From Haloflavibacter putidus (GTDB lineage Bacteria > Bacteroidota > Bacteroidia > Flavobacteriales > Flavobacteriaceae), in the NCBI RefSeq assembly GCF_006546625.1, contig NZ_VIAR01000006.1, positions 62,001 to 126,000 on the forward strand: a stretch of DNA of 64,000 nucleotides, written 5' to 3'. The translations under genes and the position numbers were made by a program. This document shows positions 15,665 to 43,441 of the stretch, piece after piece (position 1 is the stretch's first letter; each line of letters starts with the position of its first letter). The notes beneath the pieces are model-generated. The model was not told where the DNA came from, ran no database searches, and saw only the letters and a program-made list of their open reading frames with translations.

Positions 15665-16063
15665 GGGGTCGACTTGGTTTTGACAGCGAGTCTAATTGAG
15701 TAGTAAGCACGTCGAGCGCTGGGATACAGCTCGTAAATCTCATATTTCACACTTTTTTAAACGGCGATAATAATTACGCCTTGGCTGCGTAATCCGAATT
15801 ATAGTAGGATTACCTTAGTCCCGAGAAGCTCGGGAACCAAGATGTCTCGCGAAGGCCTTAATTTACGGCATTCGCACCAGAGGCACCGATAAAGTAAATT
15901 TAGGTATTCTGACACCTTTAAGGAATACCGAAATTCTAAAGGTTACGGAAAAATTAGGAGGTTTTTTGCCAGATTTTTCCCGACAATTTAAGTAAAAACT
16001 AAACGTGTAGAAAGCTATTGAATTGCTTGTTTGGACGGGAGTTCGAGTCTCCCCGACTCCACC
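15665..16063 (+). ncRNA. ssrA: tmRNA (transfer-messenger RNA)
   Basis: The 5' end GGGGTCGACTTGGTTTTGAC pairs with the 3' acceptor strand CGACTCC. The 3' part has a T-arm with GTTCGAGTC. The internal tag reading frame at 15763-15792 reads GGC GAT AAT AAT TAC GCC TTG GCT GCG TAA, giving the tag GDNNYALAA, very close to other Bacteroidota tags. Length is about 396-399 nt. The genome has ACCT at the 3' end, so the terminal A of CCA is not encoded. With SmpB it rescues stalled ribosomes and tags the product for proteolysis. A hairpin with a T run directly downstream (16067-16110) probably terminates it. Confidence 0.95.
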
Positions 16064-16206
16064 TTCGCTCGCCATAGCTCTGTTTTTTAGAGCGACGGCG
16101 AGCTTTTTTATTTTAAGCTTATTTCTGACATTGGCGAGCTTCGGCGGACAATGTCCACTCTTCGAACACCATAGCTCTTTTTTTTTGAGCGACAGCGAGC
16201 TCCACT
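16063..16206. repeat. Hairpin repeat block, copy A (contains two units)
   Basis: A ~143-bp block is repeated at 16531-16672 with high identity. It has two internal hairpin units of about 42 nt: CTCGCC-ATAG-CTCT / AGAG-CGAC-GGCGAG near 16068-16103, and CATAGCTC / GAGCGACAGCGAGC near 16170-16200. Between them is the spacer ACATTGGCGAGCTTCGGCGG. The first unit is followed by TTTTTT and can act as the tmRNA terminator. Confidence 0.75.
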
Positions 16207-16252
16207 CGACATAACTTTAATTAAATATAAATAAATTGTTTTATATTTATGT

Positions 16253-16495
16253 ATGGAAGAATGGACTGTTTATTTACTCAAATGTGAGAATAAGACGATT
16301 TATGTGGGCTGCACTTCTAATTTGGAACGCAGGTTGAAAGAGCATAATTCTTCCAAAGTAAAATCTACTCGCTATAGACTTCCTGTTTTTTGCATTACGA
16401 AAATTATATTTAGAGATAAATATAAAGCCTTTGCTTTTGAAAAATATCTTAAATCAGGATCGGGAAGAGCATTTTTAAATAAAAGACTAATTTAA
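16253..16495 (+). CDS. Single-domain GIY-YIG nuclease-family protein
   Basis: The 80 residues are a bare GIY-YIG module: WTVYLLKCENKTIYVGCTSN supplies the paired GIY/YIG-like strands, followed by the helix with catalytic Arg (LERRLKEHN). KSTRYRLP and the conserved Glu region (AFAFEKYLKSGSGR) come next. Such stand-alone proteins are abundant in Flavobacteria, often next to stable RNA genes; their role is unknown. Here it follows the tmRNA by about 190 bp and sits exactly between two copies of a hairpin block, which suggests a mobile or duplicated unit. The start ATG at 16253 is the first and fits the domain. Confidence 0.85.
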   Translation: MEEWTVYLLKCENKTIYVGCTSNLERRLKEHNSSKVKSTRYRLPVFCITKIIFRDKYKAFAFEKYLKSGSGRAFLNKRLI

Positions 16496-16530
16496 ATTAT
16501 CGGTTTATATAATTTATTAGTGATAATTAT

Positions 16531-16672
16531 CTTCGCTCGCCATAGCTCTTTTTTTAGAGCGACGGCGAGCTTTTTTATTTTAAGCTTATTTCTGGCATTG
16601 GCGAGCTTCGGCGGACAACGTTCACTCTTCTAACGCCTTATCTCTTTTTTTGAGCGTCGACGAGTTCTTTAT
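16531..16672. repeat. Hairpin repeat block, copy B
   Basis: A near-copy of 16063-16206, including CTTCGCTCGCCATAGCTCT, the hairpin with GACGGCGAGC plus T run, the spacer GGCATTGGCGAGCTTCGGCG and a second, more decayed hairpin unit (TTATCTC / GAGCGTCGACGAG). Confidence 0.75.
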
Positions 16673-17130: not shown

Positions 17131-17667
17131 TTATTCGGGTTTGTTTTTGTTGGTATCTTCTTCGTCTTCGACATTTAGTAAATTGTCTATATAGGCGGAG
17201 ATATCTTCTTCTTCGATTGAATTTTGGTGCTCAGCTTCTTCGGCTGTTTCTTTAATATTATTTAGTTCTTCTTGTATGTCCTTTTCTTCAAAACCGGCGA
17301 AAGTCATTTCGTAAAGGCAATGCGCGATGATCTCGAGTTCTGAAAACTCTTCTATACTTTCCGGACAAATATCCATACCCAACCATTGGCTCCAAGGCGT
17401 AAATTCTATAGCCATAGAAAATTTCTCTTCCTCGGTTTTAGGATTTTTATATTTCCCGGAAATATCTACATAAGGCTCTCCGTCAAAATCGTCGGTTACA
17501 TTTTTTAATTCAATATACATATCGCATTCTTCCGGATTAAGAAATTTTAATTTCTCATAGACTAGTGCATAACCGTCTAAATTTTCTTTTTCCGCAGGAT
17601 AAAGTTCTACTAGAATTTCGGCTACACTTGCCCAAGCGTTGGTTTGTATAAGTTGGTTGAGTGTCAT
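17131..17667 (-). CDS. Conserved hypothetical protein (DUF6557-like)
   Basis: A 178-residue acidic soluble protein. The start (TLNQLIQTNAWASVAEILVE) and the segment LDGYALVYEKL followed by YVDISG resemble a flavobacterial family I recall as DUF6557; the assignment is from memory. There is a Trp-containing middle (FTPWSQWLGMDICPES) and a highly Glu-rich tail after residue 135. There is no signal peptide or membrane segment. Function is unknown. It is monocistronic on the minus strand and divergent from the Usp gene. Confidence 0.6.
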   Translation of the reverse strand: MTLNQLIQTNAWASVAEILVELYPAEKENLDGYALVYEKLKFLNPEECDMYIELKNVTDDFDGEPYVDISGKYKNPKTEEEKFSMAIEFTPWSQWLGMDICPESIEEFSELEIIAHCLYEMTFAGFEEKDIQEELNNIKETAEEAEHQNSIEEEDISAYIDNLLNVEDEEDTNKNKPE

Positions 17668-17975: not shown

Positions 17976-18938
17976 ATGACACCAATTAAAAAGATTTTAG
18001 TAGCCACCGATTTTTCAGAAAATGCTTCTGCTATTTATAGCTTTACGGAAGAAATTGCGGAAAATTTTGAGGCAAGTGTAGATTTAATTTATGTAATTCC
18101 TAAACCGCTTTACCTTCCGGTGGATATACACGCGGTAACTTTACCTTTAGACGAATCGAAAGAAAAAGAGTTTAGCGATAAGATGAAAGCCCAACTAGAT
18201 TCTGAAATGCAAGCTTCTATTCCGAAAGAAAATAGAGGAAAAACTATTTTAAAAAGCGGAAATCCTGCCGATGAAGTGAATGCTTGCGCCAGAGAAGGGC
18301 GTTACGATCTTATTATGATTGCTTCGCGCGGCGAGGGTAATTCTATTTTTAACAAAGGTAGTGTTACAGAAAAACTGATGCGAATTTCGCACGTACCGGT
18401 ATGGAGCGTTTTAAAAGGGAACGACACCGGTATAAAATCTATTGTTGTACCAACAGATGGGTCTGCCATTTCTTTGGAAGCCTTGCCTTTGGCGTGTAAG
18501 CTTGCAGCAAAAAGAAATGCCAAAATTGATTTGCTTAGTGTGTCTAAAGCCAATTTTACGCATATTATGCCGGGAGATTATATACCTTACACGCATAAAG
18601 ATGATGCTATTAAAACTTATATTTTAAGAAGCTTGCAAGAGTATTTAAGCGAACAAACTTCTACACTGCAATTTGAAGAAGAGTCGGTTTCTGCCGATAA
18701 AAATTTTCGCTTGCTAGACGAAGCAGGCAATAGTGTAGAAGTTTCTATTGTTGTTAAAAAGGGAGATTCGGCACATTTGGCTATTGTAGAATATGCTGAA
18801 AATAATGCACAGATGGTAGTTATGGCCACGCACGGCCACAGCAAATTGGCCAGTATGTTTGTAGGCTCCACTACCGAGAATGTTTTTAGAAATATTAAAA
18901 TCCCGGTTATGACCGTGAAGCCGGAGTTTGTTAGGTAA
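17976..18938 (+). CDS. Universal stress protein, tandem UspA domains
   Basis: The 320 residues carry two Usp domains. The first (TPIKKILVATDFSENASAIY) ends with the motif IASRGEGNSIFNKGSVTEKL. The second (KSIVVPTDGSAISLEALPLA) ends with ATHGHSKLASMFVGSTTENV. The second domain keeps the canonical ATP-binding G-x2-G-x9-G-S pattern. It is likely cytoplasmic and stress-induced. The gene appears monocistronic with its own -7 element. Confidence 0.9.
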   Translation: MTPIKKILVATDFSENASAIYSFTEEIAENFEASVDLIYVIPKPLYLPVDIHAVTLPLDESKEKEFSDKMKAQLDSEMQASIPKENRGKTILKSGNPADEVNACAREGRYDLIMIASRGEGNSIFNKGSVTEKLMRISHVPVWSVLKGNDTGIKSIVVPTDGSAISLEALPLACKLAAKRNAKIDLLSVSKANFTHIMPGDYIPYTHKDDAIKTYILRSLQEYLSEQTSTLQFEEESVSADKNFRLLDEAGNSVEVSIVVKKGDSAHLAIVEYAENNAQMVVMATHGHSKLASMFVGSTTENVFRNIKIPVMTVKPEFVR

Positions 18939-19347
18939 GTTACACTTTTCTAGTATTTTCTTGTAAAGCAGGTAGTGTGATTTTTACAATTAGCAGACGA
19001 GAATAAAAACCAAATCCATAAATGATGCAGCAGCATATAGGATTTGGTTTAGTAAAATCATCTTTTTTTATTTGCTTTTCAAGTTCTTCAATAGCTAAGT
19101 GCATAGTTTTATCGTCTCGTCTTCGCACCTTATTTAGATATGCCAGACTCTTCATGCGTTCGATTCATATTTTAAAAACTTCATACCATAAGAAAGTCAA
19201 AACAACTTTTTCCTCACCTAAAAACTGTTTATATTACAATCTATCTGGTTACGTTGTAAAATCATAAAGCCATCTATCTCATAATTATTCTTCCACTTTA
19301 CGTACAGCCAACCAAATAATTATGAAAGTTGTATACAAAAAAAACTT
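18939..19347. other. Gene-poor region left of the restriction island
   Basis: A 71-codon minus frame (18940-19155) starts KSLAYLNKVRRRDDK but has no recognisable domain and may be a relic or chance. Nothing else was identified. Confidence 0.35.
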
Positions 19348-19436
19348 TCACCGCTCACTAAAAATGTGATGCTGGGTAGCCGTAAAATAATCGCAGAAAA
19401 TCTGGTGTTTTGTTCGTATTGCCGTTTGCTTGTTTT
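19348..19436 (-). pseudogene. Relic of the 3' end of an acyl-CoA-dehydrogenase-like gene
   Basis: Positions 19351-19408 match 27081-27138 at 53 of 58 bases. The latter is the 3' end of the intact gene at 27072-28094. Read on the minus strand the relic still encodes HQIFCDYFTATQHHIFSER in the same frame, then a TGA stop two codons earlier than the intact gene. Similarity continues patchily to about 19436 (AAAACAAG) with a small insertion. The rest of the gene is absent here. Confidence 0.8.
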
Positions 19437-19527
19437 AGAGTTTCTATGAAAAGCGACTAATCATAGCACTGCTAAACTCCAAAACTTTTGTATTTTGCAG
19501 TTAGAATAAATTTCTGAGAATTATTTA

Positions 19528-21441
19528 ATGACCAAAGAACAACTCAAGCAGCTAGAAGATAGACTCTGGAAGGCTGCCGACGACTTACGAGCAAATAGTA
19601 AATTAACCGCTACAGAATATAGTTTTCCTGTATTAGGTTTAATCTTTTTACGTCACGCCTACAACCGTTTCATAACGGCCAAAGAAGAGATTGAAAAAAC
19701 ATTACCCTCACATCCACAAAGAGGTAAAAGACCCGTCAATAAAACAGATTTTTTATCTGCTAAAGCGATATTCTTACCCGAAAATGCGCAATGGAAAACT
19801 ATAAACGAGCTTCCTGAAAGTACCGATATCGGAGAATATCTCAACGAAGCAATGAAAAGTATTGAGGCCGAGTACGAGGTGTTGGAAGATGTACTGCCAA
19901 AAGATTATATGCTGTTTGAAAGTGATTTGCTCTTCCGCTTGATACGTATTTTTAACGACCCGATGTTGGACAATGTTACAGGCGATGTGTTTGGGCGCAT
20001 TTACGAATATTTCTTAAACAAGTTTGCGATGAGCGGCGCACAAGAAGGTGGTGAGTTCTTTACACCGCCTAGTTTGGTAAATGCCATTGTAAATATCATA
20101 GAGCCAAATCACGGTACAGTTTTCGACCCTGCTTGTGGTAGTGCTGGTATGTTTGTACAAACCGCTCATTTTATTGAAGAGGAACTCAAAACAGATGCGT
20201 CTCAAAAAGTGACTTTTTACGGACAAGAAAAAGCCGATACCAACACTAAACTCGCCAAAATGAATATGACAGTTCACGGCTTGGACGCCAATATTATGCA
20301 AGGCAACACTTTTTATCAAGATCATCACGATTTAGTAGGGAAATGCGATTTTTTGATGGCAAATCCGCCCTTTAATGTAGATGGGGTAGATAAGAAAAAA
20401 GAAAGCGTTAAAAACGACCCACGTTTAACATTTGGTTTACCCAAAAACGATAACGCCAATTACCTGTGGATTCAGTATTTCTATAACTACCTAAACGAAA
20501 ATGGTAGAGCAGGTTTTGTGATGGCAAGTTCTGCCAGTGATGCAGGACACTCCGAAAAGAAAATACGTCAAGAATTGGTAGAAACGGGAGCTGTTGATGT
20601 GATGGTTTCTATAGGTACCAAGTTCTTTTACACGCGTTCCTTACCTTGTTCACTTTGGTTTTTTGATCGCGCCAAAGAACAAGATCCAGAGCGTGCCAAT
20701 CAAACTTTAATGCTTGACCTGAGAGATGTTTACAGAAAAGTCTCTTCTAATCTTCACGATTTTACCGATGAACAATTACAAAACATTCACGCCATAGTAA
20801 GTTTGTACCGTGGTGATAGCAGCTTGTTTGAAAAAACCATTAATACTTATCAAGAAAAGGCTGCAAAAGCTTTTGCCAAAGCCAAAGAAGGTGTTGAACA
20901 TTTAAACAATTTATTAGAAGAAAAGACAAAGACGACTTTAAATATTGCAGCAGATTCTCAAGCAGAATACAATACAGGCGACAAGAAAACCCAAGCCAAA
21001 GAATGGAAAACACAACTAACCAAAGCGGTAAAAAAACAATTAGAGGCCAATAAGAAAGAAGCAAAAGCAGAAGCCAGCAAGCGTAAACAATTAAAGAAGG
21101 AAAGCGAGCTTTTAGAAAAAGTATTAAAAACCTTTACGGAAGCAGTTGAACAACATTTGTATTTTGAAAAAGAAATAGAATGGCTGCAAAAACGCTTTCC
21201 AGATGGCGTTTACACCGATGTGCCTGGTTTATGTAAAGTAGTAAACCGTGATGAGATTAAAGCCAACGATTACAGCCTGACCGCAGGCCGTTATGTAGGT
21301 GTTGCACCTGTAGAGGAGGAAGAAGGTTTTGATTTTGACGAACGTATGGCAGCAATTAAACAAGAGTTACAACTGCTTGATGAGGAGGCTGTTGACCTTG
21401 CGAGCAAAATACAAATGGATTTAACCGAGTTGGGGATATGA
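19528..21441 (+). CDS. hsdM: Type I restriction-modification system, DNA methyltransferase subunit (HsdM)
   Basis: The 637 residues have the HsdM N-terminal helical domain (residues about 5-130), then the SAM-binding motif DPACGSAGMFVQTA near residue 200 and the catalytic adenine methylation motif NPPF near residue 275. After about residue 425 comes a long Lys/Glu/Ala-rich coiled-coil stretch, making the protein about 100 residues longer than common HsdM subunits. A family-typical end (NDYSLTAGRYVGV) follows. With HsdS it methylates adenines in the recognition sequence. The stop overlaps the hsdS start (ATGA), so the three genes are translationally coupled. Confidence 0.95.
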   Translation: MTKEQLKQLEDRLWKAADDLRANSKLTATEYSFPVLGLIFLRHAYNRFITAKEEIEKTLPSHPQRGKRPVNKTDFLSAKAIFLPENAQWKTINELPESTDIGEYLNEAMKSIEAEYEVLEDVLPKDYMLFESDLLFRLIRIFNDPMLDNVTGDVFGRIYEYFLNKFAMSGAQEGGEFFTPPSLVNAIVNIIEPNHGTVFDPACGSAGMFVQTAHFIEEELKTDASQKVTFYGQEKADTNTKLAKMNMTVHGLDANIMQGNTFYQDHHDLVGKCDFLMANPPFNVDGVDKKKESVKNDPRLTFGLPKNDNANYLWIQYFYNYLNENGRAGFVMASSASDAGHSEKKIRQELVETGAVDVMVSIGTKFFYTRSLPCSLWFFDRAKEQDPERANQTLMLDLRDVYRKVSSNLHDFTDEQLQNIHAIVSLYRGDSSLFEKTINTYQEKAAKAFAKAKEGVEHLNNLLEEKTKTTLNIAADSQAEYNTGDKKTQAKEWKTQLTKAVKKQLEANKKEAKAEASKRKQLKKESELLEKVLKTFTEAVEQHLYFEKEIEWLQKRFPDGVYTDVPGLCKVVNRDEIKANDYSLTAGRYVGVAPVEEEEGFDFDERMAAIKQELQLLDEEAVDLASKIQMDLTELGI

Positions 21442-22670
21442 GTTGGAAAGAAGGAATAATAGGGGACAATTGTGAAGTTTTATCTTCTAAACGAATTTTT
21501 GCCAAGGATTATGTTGAAAATGGAATTCCATTTTATAGGTCAAAAGAAATCATACATAAAGCTTTTAATCAATTTACAAAAGATGAAGTATTTATAAGGA
21601 AAGAAAAATTTGATTCCATAAAAGAAAAATTTGGTGCACCGCAAAAGGGGGATGCTTTAATATCATCTGTTGGTAACAGATCAGGTGTATGTTATTGGAT
21701 AAAAGAAGATTATGACTTTTATTTTAAAGATGGTAATCTTATTTGGTTTAGAAATTTTAATGACAAACTTCTTTCAAAATATCTTGTGTATTTTCTTAAT
21801 TCAGATTTAGGACAATCTAAAATTAATAATGTTTTCATTGGTGCGGCTCAAAAAGCATTAACGATTCAAGGGGTGAAAAAAATAAAATTAGACCTTCCAC
21901 CCCTTCCAACCCAAAAAAAGATCGCTTCTATTTTAAGCGCCTATGATGATTTGATAGAAAATAACCTCAAACGCATCAAACTTTTAGAAGAAGCCGCCCA
22001 ACACATTTATAAAGAATGGTTTGTCGATTTTAAATTCCCTAATCACGAAAATACACCGATCAATCCTGAAACAGGTTTGCCTGAAGGGTGGGAAATGCAA
22101 ACAATTCAAGATGTTGCAAAAACAATTGGAGGAGGAACACCTTCAACTAAAAAAACAGAATATTGGGAGTCTGGAAATATTCATTGGTTTTCACCTACAG
22201 ATTTATCAAAAAGTAGTTCTCTTGTGTTATTGGATAGTTCAAAGAAAATTAATGATCTTGGTTTAAAAAAAAGTTCAGCAAAGCTATTACCGCCAAAAAC
22301 AATTCTAATGTCAAGTAGAGCTACAATTGGATTGTTTGGTTTAATTGATAACGAATGCTCCACGAATCAAGGGTTCATAAATATTATTCCTAACAACGAT
22401 AACTATCGATATTATATTTTATTTAATTTGATGAATAGAAAGAGTGAGTTAGAAGCTAATGCATCTGGAGCAACCTTTAAAGAGCTTTCAAAAACTAATT
22501 TTAGGAGAATGCCAATAATTAATCCATCTGAAAAAATTGTTTTTGAATTTAATTCATTTACACAAGGAATCTTTGAATCACTTAAAAATTTAGCACAACA
22601 AAACCAATCCCTTAAAGAAGCCAGAGACTTATTGTTACCGCGTTTAATGAACAGAACCCTAGAAGTATGA
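21438..22670 (+). CDS. hsdS: Type I restriction-modification system, specificity subunit (HsdS)
   Basis: The 410 residues show two target recognition domains separated and followed by the conserved helices. The first helix begins at LPPLPTQKKIASILSAYDDL near residue 153 and continues through IKLLEEAAQHIYKEWFVDF. The second ends with NQSLKEARDLLLPRLMNRT. The two domains read two half-sites, so the methylation motif should be bipartite, but the bases cannot be deduced. The recognition domains are more AT-rich than the conserved helices, as usual for horizontally shuffled specificity regions. It overlaps hsdM and hsdR by 4 bp each. Confidence 0.95.
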   Translation: MSWKEGIIGDNCEVLSSKRIFAKDYVENGIPFYRSKEIIHKAFNQFTKDEVFIRKEKFDSIKEKFGAPQKGDALISSVGNRSGVCYWIKEDYDFYFKDGNLIWFRNFNDKLLSKYLVYFLNSDLGQSKINNVFIGAAQKALTIQGVKKIKLDLPPLPTQKKIASILSAYDDLIENNLKRIKLLEEAAQHIYKEWFVDFKFPNHENTPINPETGLPEGWEMQTIQDVAKTIGGGTPSTKKTEYWESGNIHWFSPTDLSKSSSLVLLDSSKKINDLGLKKSSAKLLPPKTILMSSRATIGLFGLIDNECSTNQGFINIIPNNDNYRYYILFNLMNRKSELEANASGATFKELSKTNFRRMPIINPSEKIVFEFNSFTQGIFESLKNLAQQNQSLKEARDLLLPRLMNRTLEV

Positions 22671-25600
22671 GCAACAACTACTCCGAAGATAAGCTAATCG
22701 AGAAAACCACGATGAATCTTTTACAAGGTTTAGGCTGGCAAACTGCCAATGTGTTTCATAATGAAAGTTTTGGTGCATTAGGCACGATTGGGAGAGACAA
22801 CCAAGAGCAGGTTGTCTTAAAGCATCATTTTTTAAAAGCGGTTAAAAAGCTCAACCCTAATTTACCTGATATTGCTTATACACTAGCTTACGAAGAAATT
22901 ACTAAAGCAGAAGCTAGTAAAACTTTGGCTGATATTAACAAAGAAAAGTATGCCTTGCTCAAAAACGGCATTCCTGTCACCTTTAAAAATCAAAAAGGCG
23001 AACTCATCAAAGAGAAAAAGCTACAAGTTTTCAATTTTGAAGCACCTGAAAGCAATCACTTTTTGGCCGTACAACAATTATGGGTCAAGGGTGTTTCGGG
23101 TAGAACAAGAAGGACAGATGTGGTTGGTTTTGTCAATGGCATTCCGCTGGTTTTTATCGAGCTCAAAGCGCATCATATTCCTATTCGTCAGGCTTACGAA
23201 ACCAATTTAAGCGATTATAAAGATACCATACCCAAAATTTGGCACACCAACGCCTTTATCATTTTAAGCAATGGCATAGAAAGCAAAGTAGGCTCGCTTA
23301 CATCTAAATTTGAGCATTACCACGAGTGGAAACGTATTAAAGAGGAAGAAGAAGGCGTGATCAGTTTAGAGACCGTCATTAAGGGAACTTGCGACAAGTA
23401 CAATTTGCTGGATATTTTTGAAAACTTTGTGCTTTATGATGATTCCTTAGATAAAACCGCAAAATTAGTCGCTCGAAACCATCAGTTTTTGGGTGTCAAC
23501 AAAGCTTTAAATCATTTAAAAAGCCTAAAAGAAAAATTTGCAAAAGGCGAAATTGATAAAGAAGAAGCTCAGCGTTTAGGTGTGTTTTGGCATACGCAAG
23601 GTTCGGGTAAATCTTATTCAATGGTATTTCTTACCCAAAAGATCGCGAGGCAAATCAGTAGTAATTACACCTTTGTTTTATTGACCGATAGAACTGAGCT
23701 CGACGATCAGATTTATGGAACTTATGAAGGCGTGGGTGCAGCCAAAAACAAAGAAGCAAAAGCCACTTCGGCAAAACATTTAAAAGAACTTTTAAAAACC
23801 GATAACAAATATATTTTCTCCCTCATTCATAAATTCAATTTTGAAGAAGAATTGAGTTTACGCGATGATATTATCGTGATTTCAGATGAAGCCCATCGTA
23901 CACAAGGCGGTAACTTGGCGATGAATATGCGTAAAGCTTTACCTAATGCTTCCTTTATCGGTTTTACGGGAACACCTTTGTTTAAAGATGATGAACTCAC
24001 CAAACGTATTTTTGGTGACTATGTTTCTAAATACGACTTCAAACGCTCCATTGAAGATGGTGCAACGGTTCCTTTATACTACGAAAATAGAGGTGAAAAA
24101 TTAAAGCTGGATAATCCTGAGATTGATACGCAGATTAAAAGTAAAATCTCGGAATTTGATTTAGATGATAATGAAGAAGAGAAATTAAAGAAACTATTTT
24201 CAAGAGAATATCCTATTCTGACGGCAAACAAACGTTTAAAAGCCATTGCTAAAGATGTGGTGGAGCATTTTAATACCAGAGGTTATAAAGGAAAAGCTTT
24301 GTTTATTGCTTTAGACAAGGTGACCGCCGTAAAAATGTATGATTTCATAACGCTCGAATGGAAAAAATATGTTGAGAAATTAGAAAGAGAGATTTCTCAT
24401 ATCAAAGATGAGCAAGAACAAATTATTGCTTATCGCGATTTAAAGTGGGTTAAAGAAACCGAAATTTCAGTCATTGTCAGTTCAGAGCAAAACGAGATCA
24501 AGAAGTTTAGAGATTGGGGTTTAGATATAGAACCGCATCGTGAAAAAATGAACACGCGCGATTTAGAAAAAGAGTTTAAAGACGAAAACAACCCCTTCCG
24601 TTTAGCCATTGTTTGCGCGATGTGGATTACAGGTTTTGATGTCAAAAGTCTATCGACACTTTATATCGACAAACCTTTAAAATCGCATACCCTAATGCAA
24701 GCCATTGCCAGAGCTAACCGCGTACACGCTGGTAAAAACAACGGTTTAATCGTCGATTATATTGAAACCTACAAAGCCTTATTAAATGCTTTAGCTATTT
24801 ACGGCGGTGGCACAGCAAATAAACCCGATCCTGACACACCACCAATAGACGAACCTCCAGTAAAACCATTAGAAGAATTGGTGGAAGAGTTGGAGGAAAC
24901 CATTGCAGCCACGGTTTCATTTTTAAAACACGATTGCGATTTTGATTTAAACTTAATAGCAAAAGCAGAAGATAGCCTTTATCGTATTAAATATTTACAA
25001 GGAGGCTACAATGCGGTTTGTCAAAATCAAGATACACGAAATAAGTTTAACGTGTTGGCGAGAGAGGTTTTTAAGAAGTACAAAGCCTTAATGCCCAACA
25101 AAGCTATTTATGATTACAAAGATCAACGCGATGCGATTAATGCTTTATATAATTTAATTCAAGATAAAGTAGAAGATGCAGATGTTACTTATCTGGTCAA
25201 ACAAGTGCAAGATGTGGTTAACGAATCTATTGAAACCTATAATACAGAATTAGACAAAGTAGAAGATTACGGCAAGCAAGTCGATATAAGTCAGTTAGAT
25301 TTTGACAAGATTAAAGAGGAGTTTGCCCAATTAAAATCCAATAAAAACATTGCTGTAAAATCTTTACAAGAGCGCGTCAAGAAAAAGCTAGATGCACTCA
25401 CAAAAAACAATCCTTTGCGTATTGACTTCTACGAACGCTATGAAGAAATTATCGAAGATTATAATTTAGGGAAAGAATACAAATCCATAAAAGAAGTATT
25501 CGATGAACTGCTGAACTTATTTGGTGATTTATCTGAAGAAGAAAAACGCTCGGGCAAAGAAAACCTAAGCGAGTCAGAGCTAGCCGTTTTTGATATGTTG

Positions 25601-25867
25601 AATAAAGGCAAAAAAATAACCGATAAGGAAAAAGCAAAGGTTAAAGAAGCAGCTAAAAATCTATTAAAAAAGCTACAAGAAAACGAGTTTAAAGTAGATA
25701 ACTGGACAGAAAAGAGTCAGACCAAAGCCGCTGTTAGAAAAGCCATCAACGATTTTCTTTACAGTAAACTCCCTTACCCAACTTATGAAGACGGCGACAT
25801 TGCCGTAAAAACAGAAGTATTGTATAATTTTTTTGAGATGCAGTACCGGAATTACGGAAGTGTTTAA
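22667..25867 (+). CDS. hsdR: Type I restriction endonuclease subunit (HsdR)
   Basis: The 1066 residues have an N-terminal PD-(D/E)xK nuclease domain (GIPLVFIELKAHH near residue 170). A superfamily 2 helicase motor follows, with Walker A (HTQGSGKSYSMVFL near residue 310), the DEAH box (ISDEAHRTQGG near residue 405) and motif III GFTGTPL. A long helical C-terminal region contacts the methyltransferase. The subunit translocates DNA with ATP and cleaves at random sites when translocation stalls. All motifs look intact, so the system is probably active. A short hairpin with T run lies just after the stop. Confidence 0.95.
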   Translation: MSNNYSEDKLIEKTTMNLLQGLGWQTANVFHNESFGALGTIGRDNQEQVVLKHHFLKAVKKLNPNLPDIAYTLAYEEITKAEASKTLADINKEKYALLKNGIPVTFKNQKGELIKEKKLQVFNFEAPESNHFLAVQQLWVKGVSGRTRRTDVVGFVNGIPLVFIELKAHHIPIRQAYETNLSDYKDTIPKIWHTNAFIILSNGIESKVGSLTSKFEHYHEWKRIKEEEEGVISLETVIKGTCDKYNLLDIFENFVLYDDSLDKTAKLVARNHQFLGVNKALNHLKSLKEKFAKGEIDKEEAQRLGVFWHTQGSGKSYSMVFLTQKIARQISSNYTFVLLTDRTELDDQIYGTYEGVGAAKNKEAKATSAKHLKELLKTDNKYIFSLIHKFNFEEELSLRDDIIVISDEAHRTQGGNLAMNMRKALPNASFIGFTGTPLFKDDELTKRIFGDYVSKYDFKRSIEDGATVPLYYENRGEKLKLDNPEIDTQIKSKISEFDLDDNEEEKLKKLFSREYPILTANKRLKAIAKDVVEHFNTRGYKGKALFIALDKVTAVKMYDFITLEWKKYVEKLEREISHIKDEQEQIIAYRDLKWVKETEISVIVSSEQNEIKKFRDWGLDIEPHREKMNTRDLEKEFKDENNPFRLAIVCAMWITGFDVKSLSTLYIDKPLKSHTLMQAIARANRVHAGKNNGLIVDYIETYKALLNALAIYGGGTANKPDPDTPPIDEPPVKPLEELVEELEETIAATVSFLKHDCDFDLNLIAKAEDSLYRIKYLQGGYNAVCQNQDTRNKFNVLAREVFKKYKALMPNKAIYDYKDQRDAINALYNLIQDKVEDADVTYLVKQVQDVVNESIETYNTELDKVEDYGKQVDISQLDFDKIKEEFAQLKSNKNIAVKSLQERVKKKLDALTKNNPLRIDFYERYEEIIEDYNLGKEYKSIKEVFDELLNLFGDLSEEEKRSGKENLSESELAVFDMLNKGKKITDKEKAKVKEAAKNLLKKLQENEFKVDNWTEKSQTKAAVRKAINDFLYSKLPYPTYEDGDIAVKTEVLYNFFEMQYRNYGSV

Positions 25868-25883
25868 GTTTTTGATAACTAAT

Positions 25884-25906
25884 TTACCTATTTAAGGTAA
25901 TTTTTT
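25884..25906 (+). terminator. Probable terminator of the hsd operon
   Basis: TTACC-loop-GGTAA followed by six T. It overlaps the 3' end of the convergent PIN-like gene. The stem is short. Confidence 0.45.
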
Positions 25907-26311
25907 CGGCCTTCCTTTTGCCGTGAGTTTATAGGCAAATGCTTTATCATCTTCTAACATAATTTTGATCATTGCTTCCCAATGTTTGGCGAGAATAAAT
26001 AAAATTTCCCATACACTTAAACCGGCATTTTTGGAAGTACCGTAAATAAAAAACATTCCTATTCCAGCTTCACGATAAGCGTTGCGTTCGTCTTTCTTCT
26101 TGTTTATATTTATGTCGCGAGTAACAACAAAATTTCGATCTAAACCAACTTGTGGAATCCAATCTATATCTTTAGTGCCTTGCCCAAATTCATCTTTTAA
26201 AACTTTAACAGAAAAAGGAACCCGTCCATTCTTTAGGTTTTCTTTTTCTTGAATAAGATGAAATCCTTTTGCTAAATGCGGTGGTATGTTTTCATCAAAA
26301 TAGACTGTCAC
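25892..26311 (-). CDS. PIN-like (DUF5615-type) putative toxin/nuclease
   Basis: The 139 residues start TVYFDENIPPHLAKGF, the typical first strand and acidic residues of PIN-like DUF5615/Mut7-C proteins, with a second acidic cluster at FVVTRDININKKK. The C-terminus ends in a basic tail (KGRPKKLP). Such proteins are predicted metal-dependent RNases that pair with DUF433 antitoxins. The upstream DUF433 gene overlaps it by 4 bp, which supports that pairing. It is convergent with hsdR and part of the same island. Activity is unproven. Confidence 0.7.
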   Translation of the reverse strand: MTVYFDENIPPHLAKGFHLIQEKENLKNGRVPFSVKVLKDEFGQGTKDIDWIPQVGLDRNFVVTRDININKKKDERNAYREAGIGMFFIYGTSKNAGLSVWEILFILAKHWEAMIKIMLEDDKAFAYKLTAKGRPKKLP

Positions 26312-26985
26312 GCTGCATTTTTAGTACAAAATTCAATAGCATCTTTCACATAGCTCTCCTCGATATCATAAATACTAGCCAAATAAGGAATCGGGTCGCC
26401 GGCTTTGTAATGTTCAAGAAGTATTTGAGGTTGTATGTTTTTGTCTGCAAAAACAGGTTGACCAAACTTACGTTCCGGATCTATAAGAATAGATTTATCT
26501 TTACCTAAAGGATAATATCGAGAAGCCAAGTCATCACTATTAAAGTCAAGTTTAACAAAGAAAAGTTTAATAAGTTCAAGATTTAACTGCTTAGACCCAT
26601 CTAAAGTCATTGTAGCTCCTTCAATCTCAAAATAAATATGTTTTTTATCTGTTTTTATACTTTCTAAGACAGGTTTTAATGCAAAGGGAAAAGGTGTTTT
26701 AAATTTTTCTGAAAGCTCTTTATGCGCTTTTAAAACCTCTTTAGGTTTTACACCAGCTTCAGAAAACCGCATCATTACATAAAACTCAACGAACGTGTGG
26801 AAACTAACGGCTCTTTTACCTTCAGTCACCCAAGAATATTTATCTCCGTACGTATCGCCCAATTGCTTATCCCAATAAATATTCATCCAATTAAAAACCT
26901 TGCTATAAGACACACCTAAAATGTGTGCTATTTCAGCAGCAGTATAGCTCCCAATACCTATTTTAGGTTTATTCTCGAAGTTCAT
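26308..26985 (-). CDS. DUF433-containing putative antitoxin with HTH domain
   Basis: From the ATG at 26985 the protein has 225 residues. It starts with a MerR-like helix-turn-helix (IGSYTAAEIAHILGVSYSKV near residue 8), then a linker domain. The C-terminal DUF433 block has PERKFGQPVFADKNIQPQIL and the ending AGDPIPYLASIYDIEESYVK. The alternative TTG start at 27006 overlaps the -7 promoter word, so it is rejected. It probably represses its own promoter and neutralises the PIN-like partner; this is inferred from the family pairing. Confidence 0.7.
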   Translation of the reverse strand: MNFENKPKIGIGSYTAAEIAHILGVSYSKVFNWMNIYWDKQLGDTYGDKYSWVTEGKRAVSFHTFVEFYVMMRFSEAGVKPKEVLKAHKELSEKFKTPFPFALKPVLESIKTDKKHIYFEIEGATMTLDGSKQLNLELIKLFFVKLDFNSDDLASRYYPLGKDKSILIDPERKFGQPVFADKNIQPQILLEHYKAGDPIPYLASIYDIEESYVKDAIEFCTKNAA

Positions 26986-27003
26986 AGTTTTATAGGATAT
27001 GCA

Positions 27004-27011
27004 CAAATATA
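27004..27011 (-). promoter_or_regulatory. -7 element TATATTTG of the DUF433/PIN module
   Basis: A perfect TAnnTTTG match on the minus strand that ends 18 nt before the ATG at 26985. It also decides that start over the upstream TTG. Confidence 0.55.
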
Positions 27012-27071
27012 GACCTTTGGAGATTTATATACATTCATTTTTACAAAATTTTATTTTTAAATATTAGTGAA

Positions 27072-28094
27072 CTAGTTGCTCCGCTCACTAAAAATATAAT
27101 GTTGCGTAGCGGTAAAATAATCGCAGAAAATCTGGTGTAATTGCTGGTCTTGTTTTATGGCTTTAATGCCCAAATGCGGATGTAAAGCAATAATATTCCG
27201 CGAAAGCTCTTGCACTAATTTTACGGCTGCTTGGTGTACATTGGTTATAAAATTTTTGGTTATGGATTGATTTTCGGAAAGCTTTTCTTCTATCGTTTTG
27301 GCATAAGCTTGTACACTTTCTTCGGAATTTTTATTTGTAGTGGCTAAATTTTTAAAGGCCTTTAATGTTTCAGAGTCTTCGGCTTCTTCCAAAAAATGTT
27401 GTGCCATTCCAATGTAATTTACCCAAAGGGTTAGATCTGCAAACAAGGAAAATGGAATCTTAAAAATAGCTTGCGGATGGTAAAATTGGTTATACAAAAA
27501 ACTAAAGTCTTGGTGTATTTTGACGTTTTCTACCTGAAAGGAGTCTGTAGCAGAGGCTTTTAAACCAATGGTATTCCAATTCTTGATAATACTCACTTTC
27601 TCTTTGGGTAAAATAAAAGAACGTATTTGTGGCGAACCGTCTTGGTTGGTTAGGGGTTCGCCGTTTTCGTAGATTTTGGCATTTAGGGTAAAATGTGTTA
27701 AATACGGCGCTCCCGTGGCATAATGCCACGTGCCGTCAATTTCGTAATAATCTCCCATCTTTTTTGCAGTACCAAAAGCGCCTCCGCTTCCGCCTAAGAT
27801 GGTGTTTTGTTTGTTTTTAAAGACTTCGGCTGCAGCCTCGTGTTTTAAATTTCCTACAAAATAGTTGGCTCCGCTGCACAAAGTGACCGTCCATCCCAAA
27901 CTGCCATCTATTCTTGCGAGTTCTTGTAATTTGGCTAAACCGGCGGTTAAGCCTAGTTCGAGTCCGCCATATTTTTTGGGCACCCAGATATTCCACAGAT
28001 TTTCTTCTGCAATATGTTGCAATACATTTTTGGGAAAAACTTGTTTTTTAAAACAGGCTTCTCTAAGCATTTGTTGGTTGTAAATTGTCTTCAT
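27072..28094 (-). CDS. Acyl-CoA-dehydrogenase-fold flavoprotein
   Basis: The 340 residues have the acyl-CoA dehydrogenase helical N-terminus (LWNIWVPKKYGGLELGLTAG near residue 33). Middle-domain blocks follow: LGGSGGAFGTAKKMGDYYEI and TGAPYLTHF, the usual FAD-side region. The C-terminal helical domain ends with FCDYFTATQHYIFS. The family also includes flavin monooxygenase-like relatives, so the reaction is uncertain. Its start overlaps the end of the PnuC-family gene by 32 bp, so both are likely on one transcript under the TPP riboswitch. The 3' end is duplicated at 19351-19408 and marks the island boundary. Confidence 0.7.
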   Translation of the reverse strand: MKTIYNQQMLREACFKKQVFPKNVLQHIAEENLWNIWVPKKYGGLELGLTAGLAKLQELARIDGSLGWTVTLCSGANYFVGNLKHEAAAEVFKNKQNTILGGSGGAFGTAKKMGDYYEIDGTWHYATGAPYLTHFTLNAKIYENGEPLTNQDGSPQIRSFILPKEKVSIIKNWNTIGLKASATDSFQVENVKIHQDFSFLYNQFYHPQAIFKIPFSLFADLTLWVNYIGMAQHFLEEAEDSETLKAFKNLATTNKNSEESVQAYAKTIEEKLSENQSITKNFITNVHQAAVKLVQELSRNIIALHPHLGIKAIKQDQQLHQIFCDYFTATQHYIFSERSN

Positions 28095-28668
28095 TTTTAA
28101 TGATTTTTTTCCATTTTAGATAACCGGAAACGCCCACGCCAAATAAAAACAGCGTTAAAGCGGCGTAGATATAAAGCTCTTTATAGATTAGTAACGGAAT
28201 GGCAACGGCATTGCTAATGTTAAGAAATATCCAGTTTTCCATTTTACGTTTGGCCATTAACCACATTCCCGCCCAAGCAAAAGCACTCACGATTGCATCC
28301 CAAATGGGCACATCTGAATTGGTGTAAAAACTAAGCCAATAACTCATCAATACAAAACAACCAAGCACAATACCGGCTGCTTTTAAAAAATCTGTTTTTG
28401 TAGAATAGGTAATAGGACTGGGTTTATTTTTTTTACCGAATTGCCAATAGAGCCATCCGTAAATACTCATTACCAGATAGTACATACTCAGTAAAATATC
28501 TGCGTACAATTGCGTTTGGTAATGCACCCAAATACTGAGTAAAATTGATACAATACCAAATAAATAGTTGTGAATATTGTTTTTTCTTGCCAGCAAAACC
28601 TGCACCACGCCAAAGCTGGTGCCTACAATTTGAAGAACGGTAAGATTGGTTAAAAATTCCCAGATCAT
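28063..28668 (-). CDS. PnuC-family transporter, probable thiamine transporter (PnuT-like)
   Basis: The 201 residues form about seven membrane helices with PnuC-family blocks (MYYLVMSIYGWLYWQFGKK near residue 62; VPIWDAIVSAFAWAGMWLM near residue 120). PnuC proteins facilitate uptake of nicotinamide riboside, but homologues behind a TPP riboswitch are the PnuT group, predicted to carry thiamine. Here a clear TPP aptamer lies 70-150 nt upstream on the same strand, so thiamine is the best substrate guess. Confidence 0.8.
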   Translation of the reverse strand: MIWEFLTNLTVLQIVGTSFGVVQVLLARKNNIHNYLFGIVSILLSIWVHYQTQLYADILLSMYYLVMSIYGWLYWQFGKKNKPSPITYSTKTDFLKAAGIVLGCFVLMSYWLSFYTNSDVPIWDAIVSAFAWAGMWLMAKRKMENWIFLNISNAVAIPLLIYKELYIYAALTLFLFGVGVSGYLKWKKIIKNEDNLQPTNA

Positions 28669-28729
28669 TGTTTTTTATTTTACTGAAATGGGAAAAAGGA
28701 GAGACAACCGGTATTTACCTACCGATTTT

Positions 28730-28822
28730 CTTAGAAATCCCTACGCCGGTATTATCCGGATCAGGTTTCGGGCAAAGCCCTGGGTATTCTCTCAGCCTGT
28801 TAAAACAAGCACCCCATTTCTT
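28730..28822 (-). promoter_or_regulatory. TPP (thiamine pyrophosphate) riboswitch
   Basis: On the minus strand the region reads GGGGTGCTTG, CTGAGAGAATACCC, then ACCTGATCCGGATAATACC and GGCGTAGGGA. These are the invariant parts of the THI box aptamer in the right order and spacing. A following hairpin (CGGTA-loop-TACCG, about 28701-28727) sits between aptamer and start codon and may be the expression platform. It controls the PnuC-family gene, and by overlap probably the acyl-CoA-dehydrogenase-like gene. Confidence 0.93.
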
Positions 28823-28972
28823 GCTGCGAAGATACATCATTTTTTAGATATTAGGTGGTGGGTTGTAGGTTCTGGATAATTTCAAAATTCAAATTTTTTA
28901 ATTCAAATTTCAAATTTGCTGTCGTGTTAGTTGACAGGGTTCTGGGTTCAGTATTGAGTGTTCGATATTCAG

Positions 28973-42672: not shown

Positions 42673-43308
42673 ATGTATTTATCTTCTTCCCAAATTCAGC
42701 AATTAGAAAAAAGGTACCGTGCCAATCTAATTAATAGTCTTAGTGGCTATAAATCGGCTAATCTAATTGCAACAAAATCGCAAGATGCAATTGAGAATGT
42801 GGCTATTTTTAGCTCTGTGATACATTTGGGTAGTAAGCCGCCATTATTAGGTTTTATTTTACGCCCAACCAGCGCTACCAGAAATACTTGGGATAATATA
42901 AATACTTCCTCATTTTTTAGCGTTAATCACGTAAACCAAAAAATTTATAAGCAAGCGCATCATACTTCTGCTCGCTACGATGGTACTACCTCAGAATTTA
43001 AAAAAACACAGCTTACCCCAGAGTACAAAAACAATTTTTTTGCCCCATTTGTAAAAGAATCGCCCATACAAATTGGCTGCAAAATGCTTAACAATTATTA
43101 CATAGAAGAAAATGAATGCCGACTTATAGTTGCCGAAATTAAGCAATTATATTTATCGGAAAAACCCGCAAAAGACGGCTGGTTAGACCTAAGCAAACAC
43201 GATACATTAAGCATAAATGGGCTGGATGCTTATACACTTCCAACACTTTTAGACAGACTAGCCTATGCTAAACCAAACGAAGAAACTCGTTCTCTTTTAG
43301 ATGAATAA
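42673..43308 (+). CDS. Flavin reductase-like FMN-binding split-barrel protein
   Basis: The 211 residues have the flavin-reductase split-barrel pattern: a domain that begins [20 protein letters not shown] near residue 16 and [20 protein letters not shown] near residue 56, with the FMN-binding Arg/Thr region. It probably supplies or binds reduced flavin. It is the first gene of an operon with DUF2256, cryptochrome and FeS photolyase, so a role in giving reduced flavin to the photolyases is a reasonable inference. It overlaps the DUF2256 gene by 8 bp. Confidence 0.8.
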
Positions 43309-43441
43309 AAATAATTTACCCACTAAGACTTGTCCGGTTTGTAAACGGCGGTTTACCTGGCGTAAAAAATGGGAAAAAGATTGGGAAAACGTAAAATACT
43401 GTAGCAAAAAATGCACAAACAATCGAAAAAAACAGGATTAG
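43301..43441 (+). CDS. DUF2256 small zinc-ribbon-like protein
   Basis: The 46-residue protein has two Cys pairs ([16 protein letters not shown] and YCSKKCTNN) and the conserved Trp/Lys core of DUF2256. That family is usually encoded next to cryptochrome/photolyase genes, and some photolyases carry it. It overlaps the flavin reductase gene by 8 bp and the cryptochrome gene by 31 bp. The Cys pattern suggests metal binding; its function is unknown. Confidence 0.85.

Follow-up and report, generated by a model that had tools for sequence, protein, structure and literature searches.

In bacterial genomes, a regenerated target gene that is accompanied by a displaced fragment of itself is described as the signature of a genomic island (PMC4383910). 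Protein genes are common targets, with 43.4% of 1.75 million mapped islands lying in coding sequences according to the survey in PMC12424338. The standard island finders, as described in both of these sources, require an integrase, so that integrase-less inserts which rebuild the end of a protein gene are easily missed. In this study, we are discussing a candidate of this kind from Haloflavibacter putidus, namely a 7.7-kb cassette of type I restriction genes (hsdMSR) and a PIN/DUF433 gene pair, which is located between two copies of the 3' end of acdA, an acyl-CoA-dehydrogenase-like gene. The stretch of DNA that was analysed, hereafter called the window, comprises 64,000 nucleotides (contig NZ_VIAR01000006.1, positions 62,001 to 126,000).

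An earlier note on this DNA, made from the letters alone, had seen in the arrangement the pattern of integrative elements that use a gene 3' end, and had pointed out that the site is a protein gene instead of a tRNA gene; according to the survey quoted above, such a site is not unusual. Here, we regard the feature as an island insertion that is plausible, though not proven, in a hotspot of defence genes beside ssrA, the gene for transfer-messenger RNA (tmRNA); the insertion locus is better described as the ssrA-acdA interval. What was observed in favour of an insertion is the repeat and its anatomy, the neighbourhood of ssrA, the near-empty or differently filled intervals of congeners, and an integrase island in the genome G327 that carries the closest hsdMSR relative.

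The duplicated acdA end and its cargo

The end of acdA is repeated directly at both borders of the cassette. The two copies (19351-19408 and 27081-27138) have the same orientation and are identical at 53 of 58 bases, as was confirmed by a recount, and an ungapped repeat finder delimits them at 19346-19408 and 27076-27138 (63 nt, 89%). Their local score of 48, compared with a shuffle mean of 6.8, was equalled in 0 of 300 shuffles. Among the 51 gene 3' ends of the window that were tested, only the acdA end has a second copy that is strong (E 8e-18), the second copies of two further ends being weak (each E 5e-4), and the copies at 19351 and 27081 are the only two strong ones in the whole genome. 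Further genomic copies were rejected, because the remaining matches are weak (E 0.004 or worse); the best two of these (E 0.004 and 0.007) concern the outer left flank only and lie within unrelated sequence.

On the minus strand, the right copy reads HQIFCDYFTATQHYIFSERSN followed by a stop, which is the terminus of the intact gene (HYIFSERSN, then stop). This gene of 340 amino acids (aa) is open to its stop and could be aligned over its full length with seven relatives. The assignment of the right copy to an intact gene end and of the left copy, hereafter the relic, to a displaced end with a stop thus stands as originally proposed. Past the repeat, no homology was detected in the outer flanks (score 12 versus 11.1 in shuffles, reached by 34%) or in the inner flanks (score 11 versus 10.2, reached by 32%), so that the further homology to the dehydrogenase neighbourhood, which the earlier note had named as a sign of an old segmental duplication, was looked for on both sides and is missing; an old segmental duplication was rejected on this ground.

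The cargo named in the earlier note was borne out by family matches. The genes hsdM, hsdS and hsdR, with their respective domains, form a single operon-like run, and the adjacent PIN-like (PF18478) and DUF433 (PF04255) genes overlap by 4 bp; within the cassette, PADLOC names the three hsd proteins only. A PIN protein with COG2442 (DUF433) is a predicted toxin-antitoxin pair (PMC2701414). Judged by these families, the function of the cassette would be ordinary, comprising type I restriction and a predicted addiction module. Homologues of the PIN/DUF433 pair adjoin other restriction-type genes in two genomes (G138 and G416; L174 3183-10239 and L173 7456-16001), where the hsd names were read by eye, with no family scan.

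Table 1. Features between ssrA and acdA with their positions in the window
Feature	Position	Strand	Matches and remarks
ssrA (tmRNA), left border of the variable interval	15665-16064	+	Rfam RF00023, 145.8 bits; ARAGORN
Small GIY-YIG open reading frame (ORF)	16253-16495	+	PF01541; between two direct repeats of ~139 bp
DUF6557 gene	17131-17667	-	PF20194; 66% homologue in G005 contig C13, 783-1313
Universal stress protein gene, last before the relic	17976-18938	+	PF00582
Left copy, displaced acdA 3' end	19351-19408	-	encodes HQIFCDYFTATQHHIFSER-stop
hsdM, type I methyltransferase subunit	19528-21441	+	PF02384, PF12161; PADLOC MTase_I
hsdS, type I specificity subunit	21438-22670	+	PF01420; PADLOC Specificity_I
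hsdR, type I restriction subunit	22667-25867	+	PF04313, PF18766, PF11867; PADLOC REase_I
PIN-like (PIN_10) predicted toxin	25892-26311	-	PF18478; no PADLOC match
DUF433 protein, predicted antitoxin	26308-27006	-	PF04255; no PADLOC match
Right copy, 3' end of the live acdA	27081-27138	-	HQIFCDYFTATQHYIFSER, then SN-stop
acdA, acyl-CoA-dehydrogenase-like, 340 aa, intact, right border	27072-28094	-	PF02771

The ssrA-acdA interval in the window and in congeners

The ssrA gene, which had not been spotted in the first reading, is situated 3.3 kb to the left of the relic. In the congeners G001, G006 and G012, the gene order is a LysDH-like gene (as we presume it to be), ssrA, acdA and a pnuC-like gene. 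In G006 and G012, ssrA and acdA end about 230 bp apart, and in G001 about 1.5 kb apart, with one ORF of 197 aa in the gap; in the window, the gap amounts to 11 kb. The nearest congener by acdA, G005 (77%), has 22 kb of other, partly defence-like genes behind acdA, running to the contig end. Its ssrA is on another contig (C13), 4 kb away from the contig start, with a DUF6557 homologue in the space between ssrA and this contig end, and the LysDH-like gene is present there as well; these two contig ends presumably face each other. In G008 and G009, ssrA and acdA are on different contigs. Altogether, acdA is matched with E values of 1e-20 or better in 7 of the 15 congeners, one of these matches being remote (27%).

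Differing cargo is, hence, found between the same conserved genes in the window, G005 (by its presumed linkage), G001, G006 and G012. Judged by gene order, the short intervals in three congeners together with the other cargo in G005 indicate an interval that gains cargo repeatedly and whose content comes and goes in Mesonia, marking it as a defence-cargo hotspot of this genus. Among the papers listed in a literature search, no link of Mesonia with genomic islands, tmRNA or a defence hotspot was found, which is no proof of absence.

Several other features of the interval and its surroundings deserve mention. Two direct repeats of ~139 bp (16064-16202 and 16532-16667, 90%), the first of which starts at the ssrA 3' end, contain a terminator-like hairpin (by eye) and have no further copy in the genome; the stretch 16064-16667 with the GIY-YIG ORF is, thus, a second repeat-bounded insert in the interval. 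The universal stress protein gene, which was considered as a possible member of an older layer, has a close homologue in only one of the 15 congeners, G015, in the surroundings of which (L031) no further ORF of the window was matched. In G005, WYL, AAA ATPase, helicase and ATPase genes are located behind acdA (L022 15604-18252; L023). Of nine proteins from this stretch submitted to PADLOC, six gave a match, several of them to generic helicase/ATPase models, and three gave none. One gene pair behind acdA looks McrBC-like; for one member of the pair, PADLOC returned weak matches of type II. On the other side, a pnuC-like transporter gene (PF04973) adjoins acdA (stretch 27072-28826) and comes with a thiamine pyrophosphate (TPP) riboswitch (28721-28826, same strand). 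Because of this riboswitch, and because a pnuC homologue is present in 78 of 80 acdA loci (see below), acdA and the pnuC-like gene are suggested to be a thiamine-related pair.

Origin of the arrangement

The account that we tentatively prefer, and which stops just short of being probable, is an island-type, site-specific insertion with an integrase that was lost or supplied from elsewhere. The 7.7-kb cassette would have been inserted at the acdA 3' end in the fashion of an island, the incoming DNA bearing its own, slightly different acdA end. By its joining to the body of acdA, this end would have kept the gene whole and become the right copy; the native end, including its stop, would have been displaced to the opposite border of the cassette as the left copy. 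The joint would have been made by a site-specific recombinase whose gene was later lost or which acted from elsewhere. The equivalence of the anatomy in the window with the island signature favours an island-type insertion, and the shortness of the scar favours a site-specific one.

The differences between the copies are informative as to which end is native. The left copy differs from the acdA end of G005 at 7 of 57 bases, all seven differences being silent and none a replacement. Since its 19 residues and its stop position are the same as in this nearest congener, the left copy reads as what is probably the native acdA end. The right copy also shows 7 differences to G005, of which 6 are silent and 1 replaces an amino acid; between the two copies, there are 5 differences, comprising 3 silent ones and 2 within one replaced codon. 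The live acdA carries a His-to-Tyr change; among the 81 ends of relatives, 80 have C as the first base of this codon (six loci counted twice under two handles). With G005 as reference, two changes are polarised to the left copy, both of which are silent; the silent share expected of random changes there is about 18-22% (P about 0.03-0.05, weak at two changes). These values point, weakly, to two alleles whose divergence under selection preceded their joining, and away from a decayed local duplication.

Further evidence comes from the relatives of the cassette. Among 397 family genomes, the cassette DNA has matches of E 1e-20 or better in nine besides the own genome. The best one, G327, matches hsdMSR at 80-84% DNA identity in pieces covering window positions 19481-25859 and is devoid of the PIN/DUF433 pair. 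On contig 72 of G327, hsdMSR is part of a stretch of about 20 kb that is enclosed by a direct repeat of 62 bp (23404-23465 and 43290-43351; 56 of 62 identical), one copy of which overlaps the 3' end of a tRNA-Leu(TAG) gene (43339-43421). A tyrosine integrase gene (PF13102, PF00589; 23666-24961) lies beside the other copy, at the far end from tRNA-Leu. The closest hsdMSR relative found, thus, by all appearances rides a classical island, and the mismatches in the G327 repeat imply that imperfect repeats of such length occur around such cargo. The entire element (C72 23404-43351; L186, L172) looks complete and also includes HTH_17 and M23 peptidase genes.

A series of results weighs against the preferred insertion. 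No integrase or integrase remnant was found in the cassette or the window, in agreement with the earlier note: none of the five Phage_integrase matches of the genome falls within the window, tblastn with six integrase queries against the window gave nothing at E 1e-4, and the ORFs of the cassette are all assigned to other families. The left outer flank is unlike the sequence behind acdA in G005, G001, G006 and G012, and therefore no true empty site was found; the intervals of G006 and G012 are near-empty, yet the sequence behind acdA there does not match the left flank of the window. The cargo of G005 comes without a relic, both in the 22 kb to the contig end and in the 4 kb before ssrA. The last sense codon that both copies share is precisely where their homology halts, which would also result from two alleles of the gene. 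In G327, it is hsdM that faces the target gene, while in the window it is the DUF433 end. Moreover, SN-like tails that are two residues longer (eight residues after TATQH) occur in 7 of 81 relatives, and therefore the extra SN alone proves nothing.

Recurrence of the site, which the earlier note had envisaged as a new cargo-insertion site for Flavobacteria, also counts among these points. The acdA scan found 137 relatives, of which the best 80 named loci were kept, sampled at one genome per species. At least 7.7 kb of downstream sequence is available in 71 of them and less than 1 kb in 4, so longer inserts would be missed. A second acdA end was seen in 0 of 80 loci (end motif once in each; blastn with the own end), while the same method recovered both copies of the window as a positive control. 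The six integrase queries revealed no related integrase downstream of acdA in these loci and matched only two of them, both upstream of acdA. No PIN, DUF433 or universal stress protein homologue was detected within the 80 loci; remote hsd homologues (22-32% identity) are present (hsdM in 3, hsdS in 3, hsdR in 4). Together with the relic-free cargo of G005, these results speak against acdA as a site of recurrent attachment, and the claim was dropped. In the 15 congeners, no second gene-end copy and, hence, no relic without hsd genes was found (matches in 3, all inside acdA), at a limited sensitivity, as not even the ends of acdA in G001, G006 and G012 were picked up by this search, although one copy was seen in the 20-kb stretch of each. 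The acdA end was not found in viral contigs either, where an exact degenerate pattern gave 0 matches. An acdA end borne by phages or plasmids was likewise rejected: 4 phage and 416 plasmid records match the whole protein, all at less than 60% identity, and the matches listed (best 20 of the 416 plasmid records) are ordinary acyl-CoA dehydrogenases at 22-26% identity. Of the earlier proposal of an integrative element in a gene 3' end, the anatomy and the integrase island around the closest hsd relative have, thus, held, while an integrase and recurrence have not been found.

A doubtful, but serious alternative is an integrase-free seam. DNA of a donor with hsdMSR-PIN-DUF433 behind its acdA would have entered the recipient, its right side by homologous exchange within acdA/pnuC and its left side by illegitimate joining inside the acdA end already present. 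The scar of such homology-facilitated illegitimate recombination would be the 58 bases that remain of the acdA end of the recipient. The missing integrase and the missing recurrence of second acdA ends favour this seam, which also fits the cargo directly behind acdA in G005, the stop of homology at the last shared codon, and differences between the copies that are mostly silent (3 silent, one replaced codon), as between alleles. Hotspots without integrases, which recombine in flanking genes, are described as common (PMC5635113), and a one-sided mechanism of this type is on record (PMC3240628, PMC2884548). However, the scar of a random joint could be as long as the 1-kb gene or have any smaller size, whereas 58 bases at the very gene end are typical of an attachment core. 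In addition, no donor genome was found, and no donor stretch is visible in acdA, along which the identity to G005 at third codon positions (0.49-0.76 per 40 codons) runs without a step.

A more novel, but unlikely reading is that defence cassettes devoid of an integrase truly attach at the acdA 3' end, are moved by a recombinase that comes from another part of the cell or from another element, and carry with them a gene end by which the target is mended. If true, it would reveal a class that is missed by island finders demanding an integrase. The seam formed by the gene-end copies is clear and datable, and the frequency of gene-end scars, determined without an integrase filter, would bear on the question of integrase loss versus integrase-free recombination.

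A duplication, either a local one of the acdA end or an old segmental one, that later decayed, with the hsd cassette arriving separately, would agree with the direct orientation and the common neighbourhood of the copies, but is quite improbable. The lack of homology in the outer and inner flanks counts against a large old duplication, a freely drifting relic should not remain peptide-identical to G005, the congeners gave no relic without hsd genes within the sensitivity stated, and both changes of the left copy are silent, a weak point with two changes only. An assembly or chance artefact, conceivable in a draft genome of 53 contigs, can practically be dismissed, since both copies are well inside a 201-kb contig, differ at 5 sites and have a score unreached in 300 shuffles.

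Comparison with described systems

The 10K island of Riemerella anatipestifer (PMC6764341) resembles the insert in being flavobacterial-type, about 10 kb long and bounded by direct repeats of ~53 bp at a gene end; as described there, it differs by its tRNA-Arg target, perfect repeats, the presence of an integrase and an excision shown by polymerase chain reaction. The tRNA-Leu island of G327 is alike in its hsdMSR and in the imperfection of its repeats, but possesses a tyrosine integrase and HTH_17, lacks the PIN/DUF433 pair and targets a tRNA gene.

Integrase-free hotspots (PMC5635113) share with the ssrA-acdA interval a variable defence cargo between two conserved genes and no mobility gene, whereas the double homologous exchange described for them leaves no duplicated gene end. 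As in the PIN-COG2442 pairs of PMC2701414, a predicted PIN toxin and a DUF433 antitoxin are encoded by adjacent genes; unlike the pairs treated in that source, the pair of the window, likewise a prediction, belongs to a type I restriction cassette. Finally, while the Islander/TIGER tools, as described in PMC4383910 and PMC12424338, require an integrase gene in the island and none was found in the cassette of the window, the islands in gene 3' ends that these tools map are alike in their regenerated target, their displaced fragment and the cargo enclosed between the two.

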